A DNA stretch of 33,537 nucleotides from contig PNJO01000012.1 of the NCBI GenBank assembly GCA_013821905.1, forward strand, positions 1 to 33,537, written 5' to 3'. Below the pieces are notes generated by a model. It was not told the origin of the DNA and made no database searches. It was given only the letters and a program-made list of their open reading frames with translations. Position numbers and translations under genes: made by a program. Of the stretch, positions 15,662 through 24,447 are shown piece by piece (the stretch's first letter is position 1; each line of letters begins with the position of its first letter). This DNA comes from Sphingopyxis sp. Lineage in GTDB: Bacteria; Pseudomonadota; Alphaproteobacteria; Sphingomonadales; Sphingomonadaceae.

Positions 15662-17176
15662 TCAGCGCACGCGGTAGAGATAGGCCGGTTCGTTCGGATG
15701 GCGAAGCTTGCGCCAGATGCCTGCGGGCAGGGCGCGGTCGGCGCCGACGCCTTCGAGCGCGATCGCGAGATAGCTCGGCGCGGGCGTGAAGGTCTCGACC
15801 AGCTCCCATTCCGGCTGCGGCTGGTAGAGCGGCGCCTGCGCCGCATCCATCCTGGCATTGGGTTTCGCGCCGCGCGCCGGGTTGTAATAGAAGAGCGTGC
15901 CCGGTGCCGGCGGCGCATCGACGGCGCGCGCGGTCGATCCGGCCCAGCGCAGCAGCAGATCGGCGCGATAGCGCGTCATCGGGTCGGTTCCGATGCGCGC
16001 CCCCGGCCGCGCGGCGAGCGCCGCGACGAACTGCTCCTCGCCGAAGGTCGGGTCGCGATTCTCGACGTAGATGCCCGCGAGATTCGTTCCGACGAGCAGC
16101 GCCATTCCCGCCAGCGCCGCCCGGCGCGCGCGCGTCGCGCCCTGCTGGACGATCAGCCCCAGCGCGGTGCCGGTGAGCAGGCACGCCATCGTCGCGGTGA
16201 TCATGAAATAGCGCGGGTTGAGCGGCAGCAGCTTCTGCGCCGCGCCGACGCAGACGAACCAGCAGAGTGCGAACAGCGCGAGCAGCCGCGCGAAATGGCG
16301 CACCCGGTCGGGCACCGCGCGCGCGAAGCAGAGCCACGCGCCGAGCGGCAGCGCGAAAAACATCAGCGCCATGAACTCCTGGTTGACCAGAAGCACGAGC
16401 AGCGGGTCGACCAGCGGGTGCACGATGACGTTGCCGGCGAGGTCGATCGACCGGTCGATCGTCGCGTCATGGTGGAGCGAGATGTTGAACCGGTAGAGCG
16501 GATCGCCGGTCATGATGCCGAGATAGAGGAGCTCGAGCGACCAGACCGCCAGGAAACCCACTGCGATCCACAGATAGTGCCAGCGACGGAAACGGTGCCC
16601 CGCGAGAAACAGCAGGCCGAAAAAGGGAATGATGAAGATCGCGGTTTCGCGCACGAGGAAGGCGAGCCCGACGAGCGCGCCCGAACCGATCAGCCGCGCA
16701 CGGTTCGGCCCTGCTTCGAGGCAGCGGAAACAGAGAATCCACGCGCCGAAGAGCAGCGCCATCTCGATCACGTCGACATTGGCGATCGACGCCTGCACGA
16801 CGAGCAGCGGGCTCGTCGCGCAGGCGAGCAGCGCGAAAAAGGCGGGCAGCGGCCCCGCGACATCGCGCGTCGCGCGCCATGCCGCGATCAGGAAGGCGAC
16901 GAGGTAGAGCAGCGACGGCAGCACCATCGCGAATTCGTTGCCGCCAAGCGTCAGGAAGGACAGCGCCATCGGGATGGTGATCGGATAGCGGATCGTGCCG
17001 TGCCCCCCGACGAAGGGGAAATGCTCGATCCAGCCATAGGCGCCGCGCGCATAGGTCACGTCGTCGGACGCGATGAAGCCGACCCACGCGAGCGTCACGA
17101 GCAGGGCGAACAGCGCGAGGCCGATCCACAGGCCGCGGCGTCCGGGTCCGGTCAGGCGTTCGATGGCATGGATCAT
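15662..17176 (-). CDS. GT39-family (ArnT/PMT-like) membrane glycosyltransferase
   Basis: A 504-residue polytopic protein with about 10-11 hydrophobic segments. After the first membrane segment it has ASDDVTYARGAYGW, the acidic pair and context typical of GT-C enzymes (GT39/ArnT) that use a polyprenyl-phosphate sugar donor. A periplasmic C-terminal region starts at about residue 365 (YVENRDPTFGEEQFV). The start MIHAIERL at 17176 overlaps the GtrA stop by ATGA; the ORF-track start six codons upstream would lie inside gtrA. As the third gene after GT2 and GtrA, it probably transfers the sugar from undecaprenyl phosphate to a surface glycan or lipid in the periplasm, as the type-specific Gtr protein does in serotype conversion. 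Confidence 0.85.
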   Translation of the reverse strand: MIHAIERLTGPGRRGLWIGLALFALLVTLAWVGFIASDDVTYARGAYGWIEHFPFVGGHGTIRYPITIPMALSFLTLGGNEFAMVLPSLLYLVAFLIAAWRATRDVAGPLPAFFALLACATSPLLVVQASIANVDVIEMALLFGAWILCFRCLEAGPNRARLIGSGALVGLAFLVRETAIFIIPFFGLLFLAGHRFRRWHYLWIAVGFLAVWSLELLYLGIMTGDPLYRFNISLHHDATIDRSIDLAGNVIVHPLVDPLLVLLVNQEFMALMFFALPLGAWLCFARAVPDRVRHFARLLALFALCWFVCVGAAQKLLPLNPRYFMITATMACLLTGTALGLIVQQGATRARRAALAGMALLVGTNLAGIYVENRDPTFGEEQFVAALAARPGARIGTDPMTRYRADLLLRWAGSTARAVDAPPAPGTLFYYNPARGAKPNARMDAAQAPLYQPQPEWELVETFTPAPSYLAIALEGVGADRALPAGIWRKLRHPNEPAYLYRVR

Positions 17177-17571
17177 AAGGGACGATATACCCACAGGCGC
17201 GAGAGCAGGAAGGCCGAGCCGATCACGACGATGTCGACCGCGATCTTGGCGAGATATTCATTGGCGCCGAGCCGCTCGATCGCGAGCCACAGCAAGGCCG
17301 AGGAGAGCAGCAGGTTGAAACCGAGCACCGCGAGATAGGAAGCGAACTGCCGCCCCGCGCCGTCGCGCTGCGCCCAGCGGAAGGTGACCTGCCGGTGCAG
17401 CACGAAGCCCAGCGCCGCGCCCGCGATCTTGCCCGCGACATTCGCGGTCAGGAACTGGCCGGGGATCAACAGCAACAGCGCCGAATAGACCGCGAAATCG
17501 GCCGCCAGCACGATCGCGCCGACGAAGCCATAGCGGATGGCATGGGCGATCCAGCCGTTGCCGGCGATCAT
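17173..17571 (-). CDS. GtrA family membrane protein
   Basis: A 132-residue protein with four hydrophobic segments and GtrA hallmarks: RYGFVGAIVLAADFAVYSALL at the N-terminus, GKIAGAALGFVLHRQVTFRW (the FxxxRxxxF-type centre) and SRLWVYRPL at the C-terminus. GtrA proteins are thought to flip polyprenyl-phosphate-linked sugar across the inner membrane. The start overlaps the GT2 stop and the stop overlaps the GT39 start, both by ATGA, so the three genes are translated as one set. No separate promoter is visible. Confidence 0.92.
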   Translation of the reverse strand: MIAGNGWIAHAIRYGFVGAIVLAADFAVYSALLLLIPGQFLTANVAGKIAGAALGFVLHRQVTFRWAQRDGAGRQFASYLAVLGFNLLLSSALLWLAIERLGANEYLAKIAVDIVVIGSAFLLSRLWVYRPL

Positions 17572-18599
17572 GGCTGCGGCTCGTGCGGGACGATGTCGGC
17601 GAGCGAAAAGGTCGGCTGGATCGGCACGCGCGGCTCGTTCGCCATGTCGAACGACAGGAAATTGAGCAGGAACTGCACGCCGAGAATGATCGGCAGCACC
17701 GCGATCATCACCGTGCCCGTGCTCGCGACCTCGCCGCTGCTCACCGAATGCGCCCATTGCACCGCGCCATAGATGGTGCCGAAGATCAGGAAGATCGCCC
17801 CGAACAGCAATTGCAGCGACGCCGGGCTGAAATCGCGCAGGAAATAGGTGTAGAAGATGCGCTTGGTCAGCTCGCGCATATTCTTCGCAAAGAAATGCCA
17901 GAGCTCTTTCCTGATATGGAGGTTGCTGACCTCGTCGCCATAGACGGCTTCCATCGGCACGTCGGCGACCACCGCGCGCGCGTTGCCGAGGTTGATCAGC
18001 ATGTCGGTCTCGAAGAAATAGCGCTCCGACACATTGGCGAATTCGATGCTGTTCAGCGCCGCCGCGTGGATCGCCGTATAACCGTTCGTGGGGTCGAAAA
18101 TGCCCCAGTAACCGCTCGACAATTTGGTCATGAACGACAGGCCGGCGTTGCCGTAGAGCCGTACGCGCGGCATCTTGCGCACGTTCCACAGGCTGTGGAA
18201 GCGGTTGCCCTTCGCATAATCGGCCTGCCGCGCGAGCACCGGGCGCGCGATATGGGGGATCAGCGCAGGGTCCATCTGTCCGTCGCCATCGACCTTGACG
18301 ACGATGTCGGCGCCCGCGGCGAGCGCGGCGCGATAGCCGCTGATCACCGCACCGCCGACGCCGCGGTTCTTTTCATGAAAGATAACGCGGACGCGCTTGT
18401 CGCGGCACTCGGCCTCGACAAAGCGTCCCGATCCGTCGGGGCAGGCGTCGTCGACGACGAAGATCATCGCGATCTCGGGCCCGATCCGCGCGATCACGTC
18501 CAGCACATGCGCCTTCACGCGATAGCTCGGGATCACCACCGCCAATATCTGGTCGGGGCGCGTCGAGCCGGGAAGCGGGACATGTCTGGGCTGCCACAT
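17568..18599 (-). CDS. Glycosyltransferase family 2, GtrB/dolichol-phosphate-mannosyltransferase-like
   Basis: A 343-residue enzyme with a cytoplasmic GT2 domain and two C-terminal membrane segments (ASLQLLFGAIFLIFGTIYGAV; GTVMIAVLPIILGVQFLLNFL). Catalytic-type motifs are VVDDACPDGSG and VKVDGDGQMDP, the DXD-containing stretch. The domain layout matches GtrB-type polyprenyl-phosphate sugar transferases. It should load a hexose from a nucleotide donor onto undecaprenyl phosphate, for flipping by the GtrA protein encoded next. A good Shine-Dalgarno sequence (AAGGAAGG) precedes the ATG at 18599. The gene begins only 70 bases after the 3' end of tRNA-Glu(CTC), so it may be read from the tRNA promoter or from a promoter in the AT-rich spacer. 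Confidence 0.9.
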   Translation of the reverse strand: MWQPRHVPLPGSTRPDQILAVVIPSYRVKAHVLDVIARIGPEIAMIFVVDDACPDGSGRFVEAECRDKRVRVIFHEKNRGVGGAVISGYRAALAAGADIVVKVDGDGQMDPALIPHIARPVLARQADYAKGNRFHSLWNVRKMPRVRLYGNAGLSFMTKLSSGYWGIFDPTNGYTAIHAAALNSIEFANVSERYFFETDMLINLGNARAVVADVPMEAVYGDEVSNLHIRKELWHFFAKNMRELTKRIFYTYFLRDFSPASLQLLFGAIFLIFGTIYGAVQWAHSVSSGEVASTGTVMIAVLPIILGVQFLLNFLSFDMANEPRVPIQPTFSLADIVPHEPQP

Positions 18600-18669
18600 G
18601 GCGCCTTCCTTAGCCCGGAAATGTAAAAATATGTTGTTTAATGATCGGGATGGCCGGTCTGGCCGGAGC

Positions 18670-18744
18670 TGGTGACCCCTACGGGAATCGAACCCGTGTT
18701 TCAGCCGTGAGAGGGCCGCGTCCTGACCGCTAGACGAAGGGGCC
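18670..18744 (-). tRNA. tRNA-Glu(CTC)
   Basis: The minus strand reads GGCCCCTTCGTCTAGCGG at the 5' end and closes with ...GGGGTC-A-CCA, so the CCA is encoded. The acceptor stem pairs with one G-T. The anticodon arm is CGGCC-CTCTCAC-GGCTG, giving anticodon CTC (Glu, GAG). The T arm shows GGGTTCGATTCCC. It forms the left border of the accessory region. Confidence 0.95.
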
Positions 18745-18866
18745 CTGAGATGCTCGGGGCATGAATCGCGCGTCGGATGTCAGTTTTTCGGGCAATTGTC
18801 CATGCCGAATCGGGATTCGACGCGTCAATCGGCTGCCGGAGCGGCCTCGGCGGCGGCGGGCGGGGT

Positions 18867-18926
18867 GGAATTACGGTGGGAATTACGGTGCCAGTTTGGA
18901 TTACGGTGCCAGTTTACTAAATAACC
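18867..18926. repeat. RAYT-associated repeat cluster, left of the transposase
   Basis: Three successive plus-strand units share GGAATTACGGTG: 18867-18878 (partial), 18879-18897 (through CCAGTTT) and 18898-18926 (GGATTACGGTGCCAGTTTACT then AAATAACC). The last holds the 23-bp sequence ATTACGGTGCCAGTTTACT+AAAT at 18900-18922, repeated exactly inverted at 19670-19692. The RAYT stop codon (18917-18919) lies inside it. Confidence 0.85.
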
Positions 18927-19591
18927 AGATTATCTTGTCGTTTTGGCCCACGTTTTTGTGCTTTGAGCGTTCGCCCTGTCCGCGCCTCCAACGCTTCGAT
19001 CCAAGCCTCGCTGCCGAGCGGCCTGCCGGACGTTTCGGACATCCGCAGTTGTCGCCAAGCGGTACCGTCGTCCCGTTCCTCGTCGAGGAAGGCAGCAAAG
19101 CTGCCATAACGATCGAGGGCGGGAGCAACCCTGACCAGTCCATCATCCTCACCCGCCAGATGCGCTGCAACGCTCGACCATCGCCAATCCTGCGCCCGCT
19201 TTACAAGCCTCGCCCGCACCGGATTGAGCGACACATAGCGCATCGCATGCGCCAGATGCTCCTCGCCCATCGCAACGGCGCCGAACCGGCCTTGCCACAG
19301 GTGGCCCGTCCAGCGATGCCGTGCATCGACGAAGCCGGTGTATCGCCGGTGCGTATCGGCAAAGGTCCGCCGCAAACCATCCTCATCGGCCGGTACGATA
19401 ATGATGTGGACATGGTTGGGCATCAGGCAATAGCACCACACCTCCGCCCCCGCTTTCTCGGCTGCTTGCGCTAGAAGATCGCGGTAGAGTGCATAGTCCT
19501 CATCCTCGAAAAACGTCGGCGCCCGGCGGTTGCCGCGCTGCGTAACGTGATAAGGAACTCCGGGAATCACGAGGCGAGGAAGGCGAGCCAT
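18917..19591 (-). CDS. REP-associated tyrosine transposase (RAYT, Y1/IS200-like)
   Basis: A 224-residue Y1 single-strand transposase of the RAYT group. It begins MARLPRLVIPGVPYHVTQRG, a characteristic start of the family; six extra codons in the ORF track reach into the repeat. The HUH metal-binding motif is MPNHVHIIIVP at about residue 61, and the catalytic Tyr is probably in AMRYVSLNPVRARLV (about 128). RAYTs are usually single-copy domesticated genes that act on short palindromic repeats placed around them. Here 23-bp inverted repeats bracket the gene and its 3' end runs into one. The reading frame is intact, so it may still be active. Further copies of the repeat lie at 20705-20839. Confidence 0.92.
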   Translation of the reverse strand: MARLPRLVIPGVPYHVTQRGNRRAPTFFEDEDYALYRDLLAQAAEKAGAEVWCYCLMPNHVHIIIVPADEDGLRRTFADTHRRYTGFVDARHRWTGHLWQGRFGAVAMGEEHLAHAMRYVSLNPVRARLVKRAQDWRWSSVAAHLAGEDDGLVRVAPALDRYGSFAAFLDEERDDGTAWRQLRMSETSGRPLGSEAWIEALEARTGRTLKAQKRGPKRQDNLVI

Positions 19592-19606
19592 CACACCGAC
19601 AATGCA

Positions 19607-19693
19607 CATTCTGTGTATTTGGTAAACTGGAACCGTAATGCCACCGTAATGCGTAATGGCATTCTGTGTATTTAGTAAACTGGCACCGTAATG
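19607..19693. repeat. RAYT-associated repeat cluster, right of the transposase
   Basis: Two direct units on the plus strand: CATTCTGTGTATTTGGTAAA... (19607-19640, followed by a partial CCACCGTAAT) and GCATTCTGTGTATTTAGTAA... through CTGGCACCGTAATG (19659-19693). Both are inverted relative to the left cluster. The second supplies the last codons and stop of the GIY-YIG toxin fragment. Confidence 0.85.
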
Positions 19694-20001
19694 TTGTTCA
19701 ACAATGGCGTATCGGGAACCTGTGACCTCGCTCCACCGAGGTGATCCATAAGACGCTGCTCAAGCCCCTTCGCCTGAGCTTTGCTCAGATTATTCGTGTA
19801 TAAAACTTCGCCAATCAATTCGCTCTTATCGATCGAGTCCGCGTGCGTGGAAAGCCGAGCGGGCGCGTCACCGCGACCGATGTATCGAATATTTCCTGCC
19901 TCATCGCGAAGAACATAGAGTCCCTGACCGGTCGCCTTGTTGTATGCGGCACCAGTGCCGCCAACGCCGCTGGGGAGGAGTCTACTTTCTGCGGCGATGC
20001 G
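19672..20001 (-). pseudogene. GIY-YIG nuclease-like polymorphic toxin C-terminal tip, fragment
   Basis: Not in the ORF track because it has no start codon. The minus strand directly after the SseB-like stop is open for 109 codons. Around residues 28-45 it reads GLYVLRDEAGNIRYIGRGD, a GIY-YIG-type core (LYVL...IRYIGRG). Then come AKGLEQRLMDHLGGA (about 78-91) and TPLLNNI (about 98-104), a pattern I know from the GIY-YIG-like nuclease tips at the ends of polymorphic toxins. A Gly/Ala-rich linker (SGVGGTGAA) precedes the domain. After LLNNI the frame enters the RAYT repeat, which adds five foreign residues and a stop. The delivery part of the toxin is absent and no immunity gene follows. It shares its frame with the SseB-like gene, which may be chance. 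The domain call is by eye. Confidence 0.7.
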
Positions 20002-20382
20002 CTAAGCGAAGTCGACGACAATCTGCCTAAGGCCTTCGGGCGTAACATCGAAGCCGACCGACTGCCCCGGATTCACCACCAGGCCGTAGCCATCAGGGAT
20101 GCCTTGCAAAAACTCGCTCCCATTGATGCTCAGGCAGTATGGGGCCAGACGGGAGAAGTCACCGATGCGCTCCATCGCTGTGAAACAGGCCACCATCTGC
20201 GTGCCACCCTTGTCGAACAGGACGGGTTGGAATCCGCTTCCATCGGGCATGATCTCGCTTCCGCTGGGAACGATGACGTCGGATTCGCTGAACAGACGAA
20301 GGAAGTTGGGCATGGAAGAACGCCCAGTTCGGGCTCTCTCCAACTCGCTCTCTAAGGCGTTCACAGGTGTAAAACCGGCCAC
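20002..20382 (-). CDS. SseB N-terminal-like protein, candidate immunity protein
   Basis: A 126-residue protein resembling the SseB N-terminal domain: it opens with NALESELERARTG, then PNFLRLFSESDVIVPSG, GTQMVACFTAMERIG, and YCLSINGSEFLQGIPDGYGLVVNPGQ. The start is GTG at 20382 with AGGGG about eight bases upstream. No signal peptide or membrane segment is visible, so it is cytosolic. It lies 11 bases after the CxxC mini-protein gene and directly before the GIY-YIG toxin fragment, on the same strand. SseB-like proteins occur beside toxin genes in several genomes, but none has an assured immunity role that I can cite. Its position in a toxin-tip array makes an immunity function plausible. Confidence 0.75.
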   Translation of the reverse strand: MAGFTPVNALESELERARTGRSSMPNFLRLFSESDVIVPSGSEIMPDGSGFQPVLFDKGGTQMVACFTAMERIGDFSRLAPYCLSINGSEFLQGIPDGYGLVVNPGQSVGFDVTPEGLRQIVVDFA

Positions 20383-20393
20383 GTCATCGCCCC

Positions 20394-20603
20394 CTAACCA
20401 AACGCCCTTGGATAAAATTTACGAGCCTTGGATTCTCGGATCGGCTCCGCCGAACGTTCATTCTGTTCCCAATAGGTGCCGCATACGCCGCACCGATGTA
20501 GGTATGCATGCCGCTCGATATTGGTTGCGATCTTAGGTGGCTGCTCGCCAGTTTCCCACTGGCGCCGGCACACCTTGCATCCCCGTTTCCCCCAAGGCAG
20601 CAT
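20394..20603 (-). CDS. CxxC mini-protein, candidate immunity protein
   Basis: A 69-residue protein from MLPWGKRGC. It has two CxxC pairs (CKVCRR and CGVCGTYWEQ) spaced by about 30 residues, a likely zinc ribbon. The start at 20603 is preferred to the ORF-track start at 20627 because it overlaps the stop of the preceding toxin fragment (TGATG). Such coupling of a toxin tip to a small gene is the usual toxin-immunity layout. The family is not recognised. The SseB-like gene follows 11 bases later. Confidence 0.6.
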   Translation of the reverse strand: MLPWGKRGCKVCRRQWETGEQPPKIATNIERHAYLHRCGVCGTYWEQNERSAEPIRESKARKFYPRAFG

Positions 20604-20722
20604 CAGAACTTCCTTACCGGTATCCATTCGCCATTCGGTCCGACCTTAAACATGACCGAGCCATTTGGCACTGCATTACCTCCAGGGATTACGAACTCGC
20701 GCGTGGGAATTACGGTGACAGT
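20603..20722 (-). pseudogene. Short polymorphic-toxin C-terminal tail fragment
   Basis: Not in the ORF track. The minus strand is open for 39 codons from a TAA inside the RAYT-type repeat (20725-20723) to TGA at 20605-20603. The first residues (TVTVIP) come from the repeat; after that it reads REFVIPGGNAVPNGSVMFKV and ends in a short Trp-containing tail. Tails of the type REFVIPGG...P.G...F/Y.V are known to me from the very ends of polymorphic toxins, but this was not checked by search. There is no start codon, so it is the 3' remnant of a larger gene cut at the repeat. It is coupled (TGATG) to the CxxC mini-protein. Confidence 0.5.
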
Positions 20723-20839
20723 TTACTTAATCCCCAATTGCGCTGGCCAGTTTGGTGGTTAAGTAAACTGTCACCGTAATTCCTGTCACCGTAATTCCGT
20801 CACCGTAATTCCCACCGTAATTCCGTCACCGTAATTCCC
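20705..20839. repeat. RAYT-type repeat cluster with inverted arms and direct half-units
   Basis: A perfect 24-bp inverted pair is formed by GGAATTACGGTGACAGTTTA+CTTA (20706-20729) and its complement (20760-20783), around a 30-base centre. To the right come direct partial copies of GTCACCGTAATTCC at 20785-20798 and 20799-20812, CACCGTAATTCC at 20813-20824 and GTCACCGTAATTCCC at 20825-20839. The core differs from the copies beside the RAYT at one position (GTGACAG here, GTGCCAG there). Toxin fragments begin at both outer edges and diverge. Confidence 0.9.
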
Positions 20840-21119
20840 AAAGTATAATTATCGAGGCGCCTTAACGATTTCTGAAGCAGAGCTTCGCCGTTTCGGCATC
20901 GATCATGCCGATATCACCGCAGCACAGCAGACGCGCTATGCCCGCTTCCGACAGGGTGGAGGAACTTTGACCTGGGAATCCCTACGCGAGATCGAGATCG
21001 GGTCGATGGTCGATGCGGGCATGGGACGGCGTTCGGCAACGAGGGCGGTTGATGCCGCCATTCGACAGCTGCAGGAATCGGGAGTACAAGGGCCCACCCG
21101 GATACCTTGGAGTAGATAA
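20835..21119 (+). pseudogene. Polymorphic toxin C-terminal tip, N-terminally truncated at the repeat
   Basis: Not in the ORF track. The plus strand is open for 94 codons from a TAA inside the last repeat unit (20832-20834) to TAA at 21117-21119. The immunity-like ATG follows with no gap. There is no plausible start near its beginning. Past the repeat boundary it reads GALTISEAELRRFGIDHADI, then GGGTLTWESLREIEIGSMV, and ends GVQGPTRIPWSR. The helical ...LTWE.LR.IE...GM....A...VD.A...L...GV..PTRIPW ending is a style I associate with toxin tips of the Rhs/CDI type, but I cannot name the family or its chemistry. Codon use is regular and the frame intact to the end, so only the N-terminal delivery part is missing. 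Confidence 0.6.
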
Positions 21120-21488
21120 ATGGCGCCAGAGATCGATGAATTTGGAAAGAAGATCATCCAGCTTGTTAGAGATCCGACGATCATGAGCGCCGAGATTATC
21201 AGAAATAAATTCTCTCGCTCGCCGACACGATTAAAACTCAATTCCTATGACGAAGAAATCGTGCAGGAGATATTGGATATTGTCATCCCGAAGGTGATCG
21301 ATAATACGATCTTTTATACTCTGCGAGCAATGGATGGCGGCGGCTTACGAATGATCTACCGGTCCGACGCTGGCAATGCCTGCGATTTGGACGAAGAAGG
21401 CATGGGAGAATTGGCTGGATGGCTCTTTGGGGACGAAGGATGGATCAAGACCTTTTCCCAGTATTCCACGGGGCAAGCCGACGAATAG
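21120..21488 (+). CDS. Immunity-like protein, copy 1 of a tandem pair
   Basis: A 122-residue soluble acidic protein with no signal peptide. It starts directly after the toxin-tip stop (TAAATG) and has TTGGAG about seven bases upstream. It is about 77% identical to the next gene by hand count (94 of 122, no gaps); the C-terminal CDLDEEGMGELAGWLFGDEG stretch is identical. The middle reads EILDIVIPKVIDNTIFYTL followed by AMDGGGLRMIY. I do not recognise a named family, though a '...ALD.G.L......DL...GE.AG...G..GW' layout occurs in small proteins of toxin/immunity clusters. This copy is visibly more AT-rich than the rest of the window and than copy 2, consistent with recent transfer. Cognate immunity to the tip encoded just upstream is the leading inference. 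Confidence 0.75.
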   Translation: MAPEIDEFGKKIIQLVRDPTIMSAEIIRNKFSRSPTRLKLNSYDEEIVQEILDIVIPKVIDNTIFYTLRAMDGGGLRMIYRSDAGNACDLDEEGMGELAGWLFGDEGWIKTFSQYSTGQADE

Positions 21489-21602
21489 CGGTATTGGGCG
21501 CGGATCTGATCGCTATTTCGCCGCAAATCCGCGCTTCCCGTTTCGGGGCAAAGCGGTGGCACTTTGCACCTTGTTAGGAATTTGCCCTGCGAGATCGAGA
21601 CA

Positions 21603-21971
21603 ATGACGCCAGAAATCGATGAATTCGGACGGAAGTTGATCGAGCTTGTCCGGGACCCGACGATCGACAGCGCCGAGGTTCTGAAGAATAGATTTTCGAA
21701 ATCGCCGGCGCGTCTGAAACTCAATACCTATGACGAAAAGACGGTCCAGGAAATTCTGGATATCGTGCTGCCCGATGTCATCGACGATACGATCTTTCAT
21801 GTCCTGAACGCGCTCGATGGCGGCGGCTTGCGAATGATCTATCAGTCCGACACCGGCAAGGCCTGCGATCTGGACGAAGAAGGCATGGGGGAATTGGCCG
21901 GATGGCTTTTTGGCGACGAGGGATGGATCAAGAGCTTTTCCCGGCATCCGACGGGACAAGCCGACGAATAG
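21603..21971 (+). CDS. Immunity-like protein, copy 2 of a tandem pair
   Basis: A 122-residue paralogue of the preceding gene, with the same length and no gaps in alignment. The start at MTPEIDEFG (21603) is chosen to match copy 1; the ORF-track start at 21564 adds 13 unrelated residues. It lies 114 bases after copy 1, and no gene of its own is convincing in that spacer. Differences from copy 1 cluster in the N-terminal half and in charged positions (for example VIPKVIDN against VLPDVIDD), as expected if the two protect against variant toxins. Its composition is closer to the GC-rich host. A matching toxin tip was not found before this copy, so it may be an orphan immunity gene. Confidence 0.72.
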   Translation: MTPEIDEFGRKLIELVRDPTIDSAEVLKNRFSKSPARLKLNTYDEKTVQEILDIVLPDVIDDTIFHVLNALDGGGLRMIYQSDTGKACDLDEEGMGELAGWLFGDEGWIKSFSRHPTGQADE

Positions 21972-22512
21972 TGGCATCGGATGCTGATTCGGCGGTGATT
22001 GCGGGTACGGTCCTTGCAATTCGTCGATGATCCGATCGCCTATTTCGTCGCCGACGGCGCGGCGATGCACGCGCTTTCGCCGGCCGAAGCCGAACCGCTG
22101 CAGCAGCAGGCGCTGGCCTATCGGCTAACGCGCCTGCTCCCGGTGATTGCACCGCTCGCGGCGCTCGCCGAGGCGCAGGGCCTGTCCGCCGACCCGAGGA
22201 CGCCCGCGCCGCCGAGCAGATTGCCCGAACCGCGCGTGAAGCCTGCGCCCGCACCAACGAAAATCCCGACCATGCGCCCCTCCACAGGACAGGGGCATTC
22301 CGAACGGCCTTTGAAGCGGCCAGCCCCACTCGAATGGGCCATCCGGCGAAGCGCGCAAAAGTTTAGAGAAAAGTTCGACCGCGGCGATTTTTTCTCTCGC
22401 CGATCCCGCGAAACTGGCGAACGGGCGCGTGCGACCGCGACGTCGGCGCGGCGCGCGAAATTGCGTGCACCGACTTTGCGCTCGGATATCGACGAAAGAA
22501 GCTTGAAGCCGA
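21972..22512. other. 540-base region between the immunity pair and tRNA-Glu(TTC)
   Basis: Apart from the doubtful reading frame at 21999-22350, nothing recognisable is seen. The last 160 bases before the tRNA have a mixed composition and no repeats of the RAYT type. The right end of the ORF-track frame runs antisense through the tRNA gene (the ...PTGLEPVFSP ending), a common false translation. Confidence 0.5.
21999..22350 (+). pseudogene. Unrecognised coding remnant or small gene
   Basis: From TTG at 21999 the frame reads LQFVDDPIAYFVADGAAMHA, LSPAEAEPLQQQALAYRLTR and LLPVIAPLAALAEAQGLSAD before becoming Pro/Arg-rich. Third codon positions in this first part are strongly GC-rich, as in real host genes. 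After about residue 85 the frame looks random and continues antisense into the tRNA. There is a stop just before the TTG and no clear ribosome binding site. It may be the remnant of a host gene broken when the accessory region was built, or a short gene I do not know. The given end marks where coding character fades and is approximate. Confidence 0.3.
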
Positions 22513-22588
22513 TGGTGACCCCTACGGGACTCGAACCCGTGTTTTCGCCGTGAAAGGGCGACGTCCTAGACCGCTAGACGAAGGGGCC
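22513..22588 (-). tRNA. tRNA-Glu(TTC)
   Basis: The minus strand reads GGCCCCTTCGTCTAGCGGTC at the 5' end and ends ...GGGGTC-A-CCA with encoded CCA. The anticodon arm is TCGCC-CTTTCAC-GGCGA, giving anticodon TTC (Glu, GAA). It shares its acceptor and T-arm sequence with the CTC isoacceptor at 18670-18744 and has the same orientation. It is 92 bases downstream of recJ. Confidence 0.95.
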
Positions 22589-22607
22589 GTCTGATCGGTG
22601 AGCGGGC

Positions 22608-22636
22608 GCCTTAGACGCGCGTTTCGGCGCGGTCAA
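22608..22636 (-). promoter_or_regulatory. Candidate promoter of tRNA-Glu(TTC)
   Basis: On the minus strand, TTGACC (22636-22631) and TAAGGC (22613-22608) are separated by exactly 17 bases. Transcription would begin about 10-13 bases before the tRNA 5' end at 22588. The -35 box is near consensus and the -10 box fair. No equally good promoter was seen upstream of tRNA-Glu(CTC). Confidence 0.5.
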
Positions 22637-22680
22637 GCAGCGGCGGCAAAATATTGCGCCGCGGCCGTCCGGTCGGCGCG

Positions 22681-24447
22681 TCAATCGGCCCAGGCGGCAT
22701 CCTCCAGATGCAGTTCGGCGGCCGGGCGGCTGCCCCAATCGTCGCGTTTCGCGCGTCCGGCGAGCCATAATTTGCGCCCGCGCGCGTGGAGCAGCGCCTG
22801 CCCCAGCTCGGTCCCGGCGCTGCGGAAGGCGATCGCCTTGAAGCGTGCGCCATCGTCGCCCGACACGATCAGCCGGACATGGTCGGTGCCGACGATCCCC
22901 GATTCGACGATGCGTACCGGCCCCGTCGCAACACGCGGCGCCGGCCAGCCGGCGCCATAGGGGCCCGCGCTCTCGATCGCGTCGCACCAGAGCGGCGAGA
23001 TGCCGCGCGGCGCGAGCACCGCGTCGATCAGCAACGACTTGTCGCCGCTCGCGCGCTCGACGTCGGCGGCGAGCCGTTCGTTGAGGAAGGCGCCGAGCGC
23101 GTCGAGGCGGTCCCTCTCGACCGTCAGCCCCGCCGCCATCGCATGACCGCCGCCCGCGACGAGCAGCCCCGTCTCCTTCGCGGCGAGGATCGCCGCGCCA
23201 AGGTCGACCCCCGAGATCGAGCGCCCCGACCCCTTGCCGATGCCGTTTTCGTCGACCGCGATGACGATCGCCGGACGGTGCAGCTTTTCCTTGAGCCGCC
23301 CCGCGACGATGCCGATCACGCCCGGATGCCAGCCTTCGCCCGCGACGATCGCGACCGGGGCATTGCCGCACGCCGCGCTCGCCTCGATCGCCTGGTCGAG
23401 CACCGCCGCCTCGATCGCGCGCCGTTCCTCGTTCAGCCGGCCCAGCTCGGCCGCGATATCGGCCGCCTCCTGCGGATCGCTCGTCGTCAGCAGCCGCACG
23501 CCGAGGTCGGACTTGCCGACGCGCCCGCCGGCGTTGATCCGCGGCCCCAGCGCAAAGCCCATGTCGCTCGCGGTCGGCGGTCTGGTCAGCCGCGCCGCGT
23601 CCATCAGTGCCGCCATGCCGATATTGCCGCGCCGCGCCATCACCTTCAGCCCCTGCGTGACCAGCGCGCGGTTGAAGCCGGTCAGCCGCGCGACGTCGGC
23701 GACGGTGCCGAGCGCGACAAGGTCGAGCAGTTCGATCAGCGCGGGTTCGTCGCGGCCGGCGAAAAAGCCGCGCGCGCGCAGCGTGCGGAGCAGCGCGGCG
23801 CCGAGCAGGAAGGCGACGCCGACCGCGGCAAGATTGCCGTGGATCGCCGCGTCGGCGTCCTCGTCGAGGCGGTTGGGGTTCACGACCGCCAGCGCATCGG
23901 GCAGGATCGTCGCGCACTGGTGGTGGTCGACGACGATCACCTCGACCCCCGCCGCCTTCGCCTCGGCGATCGCGTCGAACGCCTGCGCACCGCAATCGAC
24001 CGTCACGACGAGCTTCGACCCCGCCTCGCCGATCCGGACCAACGCCGCGCCCGACGGGCCATAGCCTTCCATCAGCCGGTCGGGGATATAGGCGCCGACG
24101 GGAACGTCGAGCGCGCGGAGCAGGCGGACGAGCAGCGCCGCCGAGGTCGCGCCGTCGACGTCATAGTCACCGAAAATGGTGATCGCCTCTTTCGCCTCCA
24201 CCGCATCGGCGATGCGCGCCGCCGCCGCCTCCATGTCGCGGAACAGCGACGGGTCGGGCATGAAGCCGCGCAGGGTCGGCGTGCGCTGGCGCTCGAGGTC
24301 GCCCCGCGCCACCCCGCGCGCGAGCAGCAACTGGGTGACGAGATCGTCGGGCGCCAGATTTTCGCCGCCCATGTCGGCGCTCGCGCGCCGCCAGTGCCAC
24401 GGCTGGCCGGCGATCGAGCGGGTGATGCCGAGCGCGGCGTCGCTCAT
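22681..24447 (-). CDS. recJ: Single-stranded-DNA-specific exonuclease RecJ
   Basis: A 588-residue 5'-3' single-strand exonuclease used in recombination and mismatch repair; E. coli RecJ has 577 residues. DHH-family motifs are present: IFGDYDVDGATSA (residues 92-102) with the metal-binding Asp residues, TVDCG (about 149), VVDHHQC (172-178), and the DHHA1 motif GGGHAMAAGLT near residue 410. The C-terminal OB-like region follows. The start overlaps the stop of the upstream PH-domain gene (ATGA), so recJ is the last gene of a three-gene operon before tRNA-Glu(TTC). All key residues seem to be present. Confidence 0.97.
   Translation of the reverse strand: MSDAALGITRSIAGQPWHWRRASADMGGENLAPDDLVTQLLLARGVARGDLERQRTPTLRGFMPDPSLFRDMEAAAARIADAVEAKEAITIFGDYDVDGATSAALLVRLLRALDVPVGAYIPDRLMEGYGPSGAALVRIGEAGSKLVVTVDCGAQAFDAIAEAKAAGVEVIVVDHHQCATILPDALAVVNPNRLDEDADAAIHGNLAAVGVAFLLGAALLRTLRARGFFAGRDEPALIELLDLVALGTVADVARLTGFNRALVTQGLKVMARRGNIGMAALMDAARLTRPPTASDMGFALGPRINAGGRVGKSDLGVRLLTTSDPQEAADIAAELGRLNEERRAIEAAVLDQAIEASAACGNAPVAIVAGEGWHPGVIGIVAGRLKEKLHRPAIVIAVDENGIGKGSGRSISGVDLGAAILAAKETGLLVAGGGHAMAAGLTVERDRLDALGAFLNERLAADVERASGDKSLLIDAVLAPRGISPLWCDAIESAGPYGAGWPAPRVATGPVRIVESGIVGTDHVRLIVSGDDGARFKAIAFRSAGTELGQALLHARGRKLWLAGRAKRDDWGSRPAAELHLEDAAWAD

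Follow-up and report, generated by a model that had tools for sequence, protein, structure and literature searches.

A wrecked Rhs toxin locus beside tRNA-Glu in Sphingopyxis sp., with two intact and probably orphaned immunity genes

We analysed a stretch of 33,537 nucleotides from Sphingopyxis sp. (assembly GCA_013821905.1, contig PNJO01000012.1; hereafter the window) and found, beside tRNA-Glu, what is probably a wrecked Rhs toxin locus whose two intact immunity genes would now provide orphan immunity against Rhs-armed relatives. In the intact relatives, a giant Rhs/YD-repeat protein ends in a C-terminal tip of about 110 residues bearing the pattern GHH...H; this tip is most likely a DNase of the His-Me-finger (HNH/Endo VII) type, belonging to the Tox-SHH family or standing close to it. 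The Rhs protein would deliver this tip into neighbouring bacteria, where DNA would be cleaved, and the 122-residue product of the gene immediately 3' would bind the tip and neutralise it. In the window genome the rhs gene was broken: its body has been lost, 29 codons from its start and the truncated tip lie opposed, and REP/RAYT-type repeats stand at the break; the first immunity gene (imm1) would confer immunity to the local tip variant, and the second (imm2) would derive from a second module with a decayed tip.

The truncated tip is encoded by a frame of 94 codons lacking a start (20835-21119, +). The initial annotation had described it as running on the plus strand from the last repeat unit to a TAA followed at once by an ATG, and a reading of the open frames agrees exactly, with the stop TAA at 21117-21119 and the ATG at 21120. 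Its first codons lie inside the last GTCACCGTAATTCC unit of a tandem array (20770-20838), and its toxin-homologous part (20841-21116) is 89% identical to the last 92 residues of an Rhs protein of the Sphingopyxis MAG Bin6, with dS 0.89 and dN/dS 0.074. Given this identity to an Rhs C-terminus, the dN/dS of 0.074 and the dN/dS of 0.15-0.23 in the immunity genes, neither the tip frame nor the immunity genes are chance reading frames. Despite a dS of 0.57, the window and Bin6 proteins agree at every residue in the second half of the tip; all replacements are located in the first half, which may therefore be a candidate specificity region. The frame opens about 12 residues past the position of the GHH motif of its relatives, at the edge of the repeat array, so that the motif is missing and only the later conserved histidine is kept. 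Because it has neither the GHH motif nor a start codon, and because no RHS repeat was found in the window's own genome assembly, the tip is an N-terminally truncated remnant, and its use as a toxin is not supported; the assembly is 90% complete in 362 contigs, such that an rhs gene could be missed, and no functional rhs gene (a complete frame with a start and RHS repeats) was found in it. With both GHH histidines lost, the remnant is predicted to be inactive and, since it can be neither started nor delivered, non-toxic. The earlier interpretation as a polymorphic-toxin tip thus stands for the family, which forms Rhs C-termini in two other genomes and occurs in a toxin array of a third (see below), and is not supported for this copy as a usable toxin.

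Directly after the tip TAA begins imm1 (21120-21488, +), the presumed cognate of the truncated tip, with a GGAG shortly 5' of its ATG, within the last tip codons. It is followed by imm2 (21603-21971, +), the orthologue of the Bin6 immunity gene. Both genes encode 122 residues (imm2 as mechanically called has 135, from an upstream TTG), and their measured protein identity of 77.0% matches the value of about 77% previously counted by hand. Compared with the Bin6 gene, imm2 is 96% identical and differs by 9 synonymous and 5 non-synonymous changes (dS 0.12, dN/dS 0.15), and imm1 is more divergent (dS 0.63, dN/dS 0.23), these ratios mostly reflecting the time before the wreck. The immunity proteins are intact, and purifying selection acted on them up to recent times at the least. 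Their present role is most likely orphan immunity against Rhs-armed relatives.

The relatives of the pair provide the context that the window itself has lost. One other Sphingopyxis genome, MAG Bin6 (L002), yielded a relative of the immunity gene, and the gene directly 5' of it there encodes an Rhs/YD-repeat protein of more than 2000 residues that ends in the tip; a four-base overlap joins the rhs stop to the immunity ATG, and the protein (L002/L020) contains PF05593 repeats and a LysM domain. The Bin6 rhs frame is interrupted once, near L020:4139-4208, where it is split into two overlapping frames that reflect either a frameshift or an assembly error. On a Bergeyella plasmid, a tip with 32% identity (E=7e-9) is followed by a homologous immunity gene (BLASTP E=1e-6), and in an alphaproteobacterial genome (G477) a tip with one in-frame stop (E=6e-14) is likewise followed by a homologous immunity gene (BLASTP E=3e-9). 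The G477 tip adjoins DUF637 hemagglutinin sequence in a CdiA-type array (PF04830 E=2e-17); its 11-kb contig (L019) carries DUF637/CdiA-type fragments, several toxin ends including a WHH/colicin-DNase end, and small downstream genes. In a further genome (G1008) the tip forms the end of a 4333-residue open frame, and the gene downstream is unrelated to the imm genes. The homologous immunity gene thus lies directly 3' of the tip in three settings (Bin6, G477 and the Bergeyella plasmid), and one tip family is found on different carriers, an Rhs protein in Bin6 and DUF637 hemagglutinin-type sequence in G477. A tip at the C-terminus of an Rhs protein, adjoining homologous immunity genes and varied carriers together make up the pattern of a polymorphic toxin with its immunity gene, which suggests that the pair represents a polymorphic toxin family of the Rhs-CT/RhsI type. 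It had been proposed beforehand that the tip should be sought on full-length proteins followed by this immunity family, and it was indeed recovered as an Rhs C-terminus in Bin6 and G1008 and within the DUF637/CdiA-type array of G477, with the immunity family following in Bin6 and G477.

The family seems to be sparsely distributed. The tip was sought in about 300 genomes from the bacterial family, 385 from the class, 398 from the phylum and 340 from the class to which G1008 belongs, with few matches, so the tip family is rare in these genome samples; several weak class-level matches (E 0.006-0.01) were regarded as chance. When the three Sphingopyxis immunity proteins were combined into a profile, only the Bergeyella-plasmid and G477 homologues matched it among 2253 ORFs of the fetched loci. 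Neither the tip profile nor the immunity profile found a relative in viral contigs, where one partial match to the Bergeyella tip was seen, and there was no match in phages or in sequence searches of the PDB.

A GHH motif lies upstream of the part retained in the window in all relatives (GGHHP in Bin6, GHHP in Bergeyella and G1008, GHHV in G477), and each of these four tips contains the GHH together with a later conserved histidine. The published signature of Tox-SHH is [SG]HH plus H (PMC3482391), and in the Tox-SHH DNase V2c of Agrobacterium 1D1609, H384 and H408, i.e., the second SHH histidine and the later histidine, are required for DNase activity (PMC10902643). The tip family shares with Tox-SHH (PF15652), of which V2c is an example, the GHH and conserved single histidine, the C-terminal position and Rhs among the known carriers. 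It differs in falling below the Pfam model, in an HH-to-H spacing of about 29-46 compared with 24 in V2c, and in its immunity protein, which matches no curated family, whereas the immunities listed for Tox-SHH are SUKH, Imm11, Imm24, Imm30 and Imm55. The Tox-SHH model matched neither the window, Bin6 and Bergeyella tips nor the G477 pieces; the G1008 tip was the only relative with any score, at 16.5 bits below the cut-off of 22.7, and no gammaproteobacterial genome in the Tox-SHH comparison scored above cut-off. Tox-GHH2 (PF15635), e.g., Tse7, shares the [AGP]HH motif and Rhs carriers, but the HxxxH that completes its signature (s[AGP]HH plus HxxxH) is absent from the tips studied here, which also have no Pfam match to it. 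We class the tip as Tox-SHH-like in its presumed action and possibly a divergent branch of that family, not as an established member.

Structure prediction was of low confidence: AlphaFold gave a pLDDT of 60 for the Bin6 tip (2-row alignment; the GHH part below 50) and of 49 for the immunity protein (3-row alignment), and a Foldseek search of the Bin6 tip model (pLDDT 60) against the PDB returned nothing below E=3. The initial annotation could name neither the tip nor the immunity family, and our searches of Pfam, NCBIfam and PADLOC, at the thresholds used, yielded no family match for either. On balance, we favour the interpretation that they constitute an uncatalogued pair, a putative divergent GHH-type His-Me-finger branch with an immunity family of its own, distributed across Alphaproteobacteria and Bacteroidota on Rhs and CdiA-type carriers, and surviving in the window only as two orphan immunity genes once the weapon had been lost.

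The locus lies within an inserted segment of about 3.76 kb (18745-22508) between tRNA-Glu(CTC) (18670-18744) and tRNA-Glu(TTC) (22513-22588). Genome G351 has the empty site: window positions 16095-18744 and 22509-24284 align to adjoining stretches of it, and this continuity identifies 18745-22508 as an insertion. In 21 congeners the spacer of the tRNA-Glu pair measures 17-63 bp; the insertion has set these tandem genes 3.77 kb apart (18670-22588), and tRNA-Glu(CTC) may have had to acquire another promoter. The tip is cut off at its N-terminal side by a repeat region (20706-20838) composed of an inverted pair (GGAATTACGGTGACAGTTTAC..., 20706-20783) and the tandem array already mentioned. The other end of the rhs gene is found further downstream, on the opposite strand: its first 29 codons (MVGIFVGAGAGFTRGSGNLLGGAGVLGSA, 22187-22273, -) are identical to L020:261 onwards and are accompanied by the upstream region up to tRNA-Glu(TTC). 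Window positions 22186-22541 as a whole correspond to the reverse complement of L020:1-348 of Bin6 (87% identical), in which the 29 codons align without gaps, and the Bin6 contig opens within a tRNA-Glu gene, at its 3' end, and passes directly into the rhs gene. In the window the 29 codons are oriented opposite to the tip and abut a truncated LuxE-like fragment whose homology stops at 22192. The inverted 29 codons and the truncated tip thus represent the 5' and 3' ends of rhs, both present in opposite orientation, with the body of the gene gone.

A REP-associated tyrosine transposase-like gene (Y1_Tnp; 18917-19609, -; PF01797 E=7.7e-10, NF047646 76.7 bits against a cut-off of 80) lies in the same segment and is flanked by the same repeat family, repeats being located at 18879-18917, 19622-19690 and 20706-20838; it is possible that this gene was the agent of the rearrangement. 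Allowing up to 3 mismatches, the 21-base repeat end has only six occurrences across the genome assembly, and five of these are within the inserted segment, a number that characterizes a low-copy element and not a dispersed REP. In Bin6 a fragment resembling this transposase-like gene (L064:518-640; G342:C274) is situated beside a glycosyltransferase gene adjoining the tRNA-Glu site, and the element may therefore recur at this hotspot. The inserted segment also contains a second wrecked module (19672-20627, -) with a 77-residue CxxC ORF, an SseB-like protein (PF07179 E=1.5e-9) and a GIY-YIG-like tip fragment (Pfam E=0.07), which has no start and whose C-terminal end is cut by the same repeat family; the module resembles a further immunity-toxin array that was disrupted at repeats.

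The sequence around the two immunity genes indicates that they belong to different modules. By their dS to Bin6 (0.89 and 0.63 versus 0.12), the tip and imm1 make up a divergent pair of alleles, and imm2 belongs to the other, Bin6-type module. Downstream of imm2 the DNA remains 93-95% identical to Bin6 over a truncated 5' fragment (21972-22192, +) of the weakly LuxE-like gene that trails the Bin6 immunity gene, ending at 22192. Between imm1 and imm2, local alignment revealed a 22-bp remnant of post-immunity sequence, namely the start of the LuxE-like gene of Bin6 (21503-21524, +; dinucleotide shuffling reached its score once in 3000 trials), and, 5' of imm2, 71 bp left over from a second, decayed toxin tip (21530-21600, +; aligned to the window tip, 0 of 3000 shuffles). 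These remnants indicate that the array once read tip-imm-tip-imm. A simple recent duplication giving rise to imm1 and imm2 was rejected, as imm2 is far nearer to the Bin6 gene than to imm1 and a tip remnant lies between the two copies. The second variant immunity copy noted earlier is present, and it was retained from a second, now decayed tip-immunity module.

The two genes might be pure debris, intact merely because the wreck is recent, unexpressed and giving no protection. No promoter-like site was found upstream of imm1 on the plus strand, the break took away any upstream promoter of the rhs operon, and the remainder of the locus is fragmented. However, both immunity frames are intact, a GGAG precedes imm1, and imm2 shows constraint even at its small divergence from the Bin6 gene, and we therefore think this explanation unlikely, though it deserves serious consideration. 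A stored tip-immunity module available for recombination onto an rhs gene, a role suggested for orphan rhs-CT/rhsI modules, would account for the tip frame still being open, and in CDI systems start-less orphan CT modules do work when joined to a full-length gene (PMC3150448). Yet in that study the orphan cdiA-CT modules usually retain the VENN motif that marks the boundary, whereas the window tip is without its GHH region and junction, and the genome yielded no RHS repeat as a partner for recombination, which makes such a silent cassette very improbable.

That the paralogues are a metabolic or regulatory pair and chance neighbours of the fragment seems hardly credible. No curated family names them, and a weak match to CTD9 (E=0.09) was obtained; however, in three genomes unrelated to one another their homologues trail homologous tips on different carriers, and a survey of 80 genomes from the genus found no homologue away from a tip. 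We therefore retain orphan immunity, left by a wrecked Rhs locus, as the probable explanation.

Orphan toxin-immunity modules are a well-known kind of locus (PMC3150448). The window resembles the orphan rhs-CT/rhsI and cdiA-CT/cdiI modules of Poole et al. 2011 (PMC3150448) in its start-less tip fragment followed by an immunity gene, in the mobile DNA nearby and in the existence of an intact version on a full-length Rhs protein in another strain, but it has no main rhs gene alongside or detected in the genome, the cut through its tip falls within the toxin domain, and the locus is both divided and inverted. With the homogeneous polyimmunity loci of Zhang et al. 2012 (PMC3482391) it shares closely spaced, paralogous immunity genes in tandem on one strand; toxin cassettes never intervene in those loci, whereas here a decayed tip lies between the genes, and there are two copies only. 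The tip-immunity family itself appears to be uncatalogued in the curated libraries searched (Pfam, NCBIfam and PADLOC), and the locus would thus add a toxin tip and an immunity family, unnamed in current libraries, with an intact relative in which they can be tested. It would also record the loss of a weapon, through insertion at tRNA-Glu, duplication of the module, breakage at repeats and inversion, with the antidotes staying intact, and so selection for keeping orphan immunity genes becomes a testable question in an environmental bacterium.
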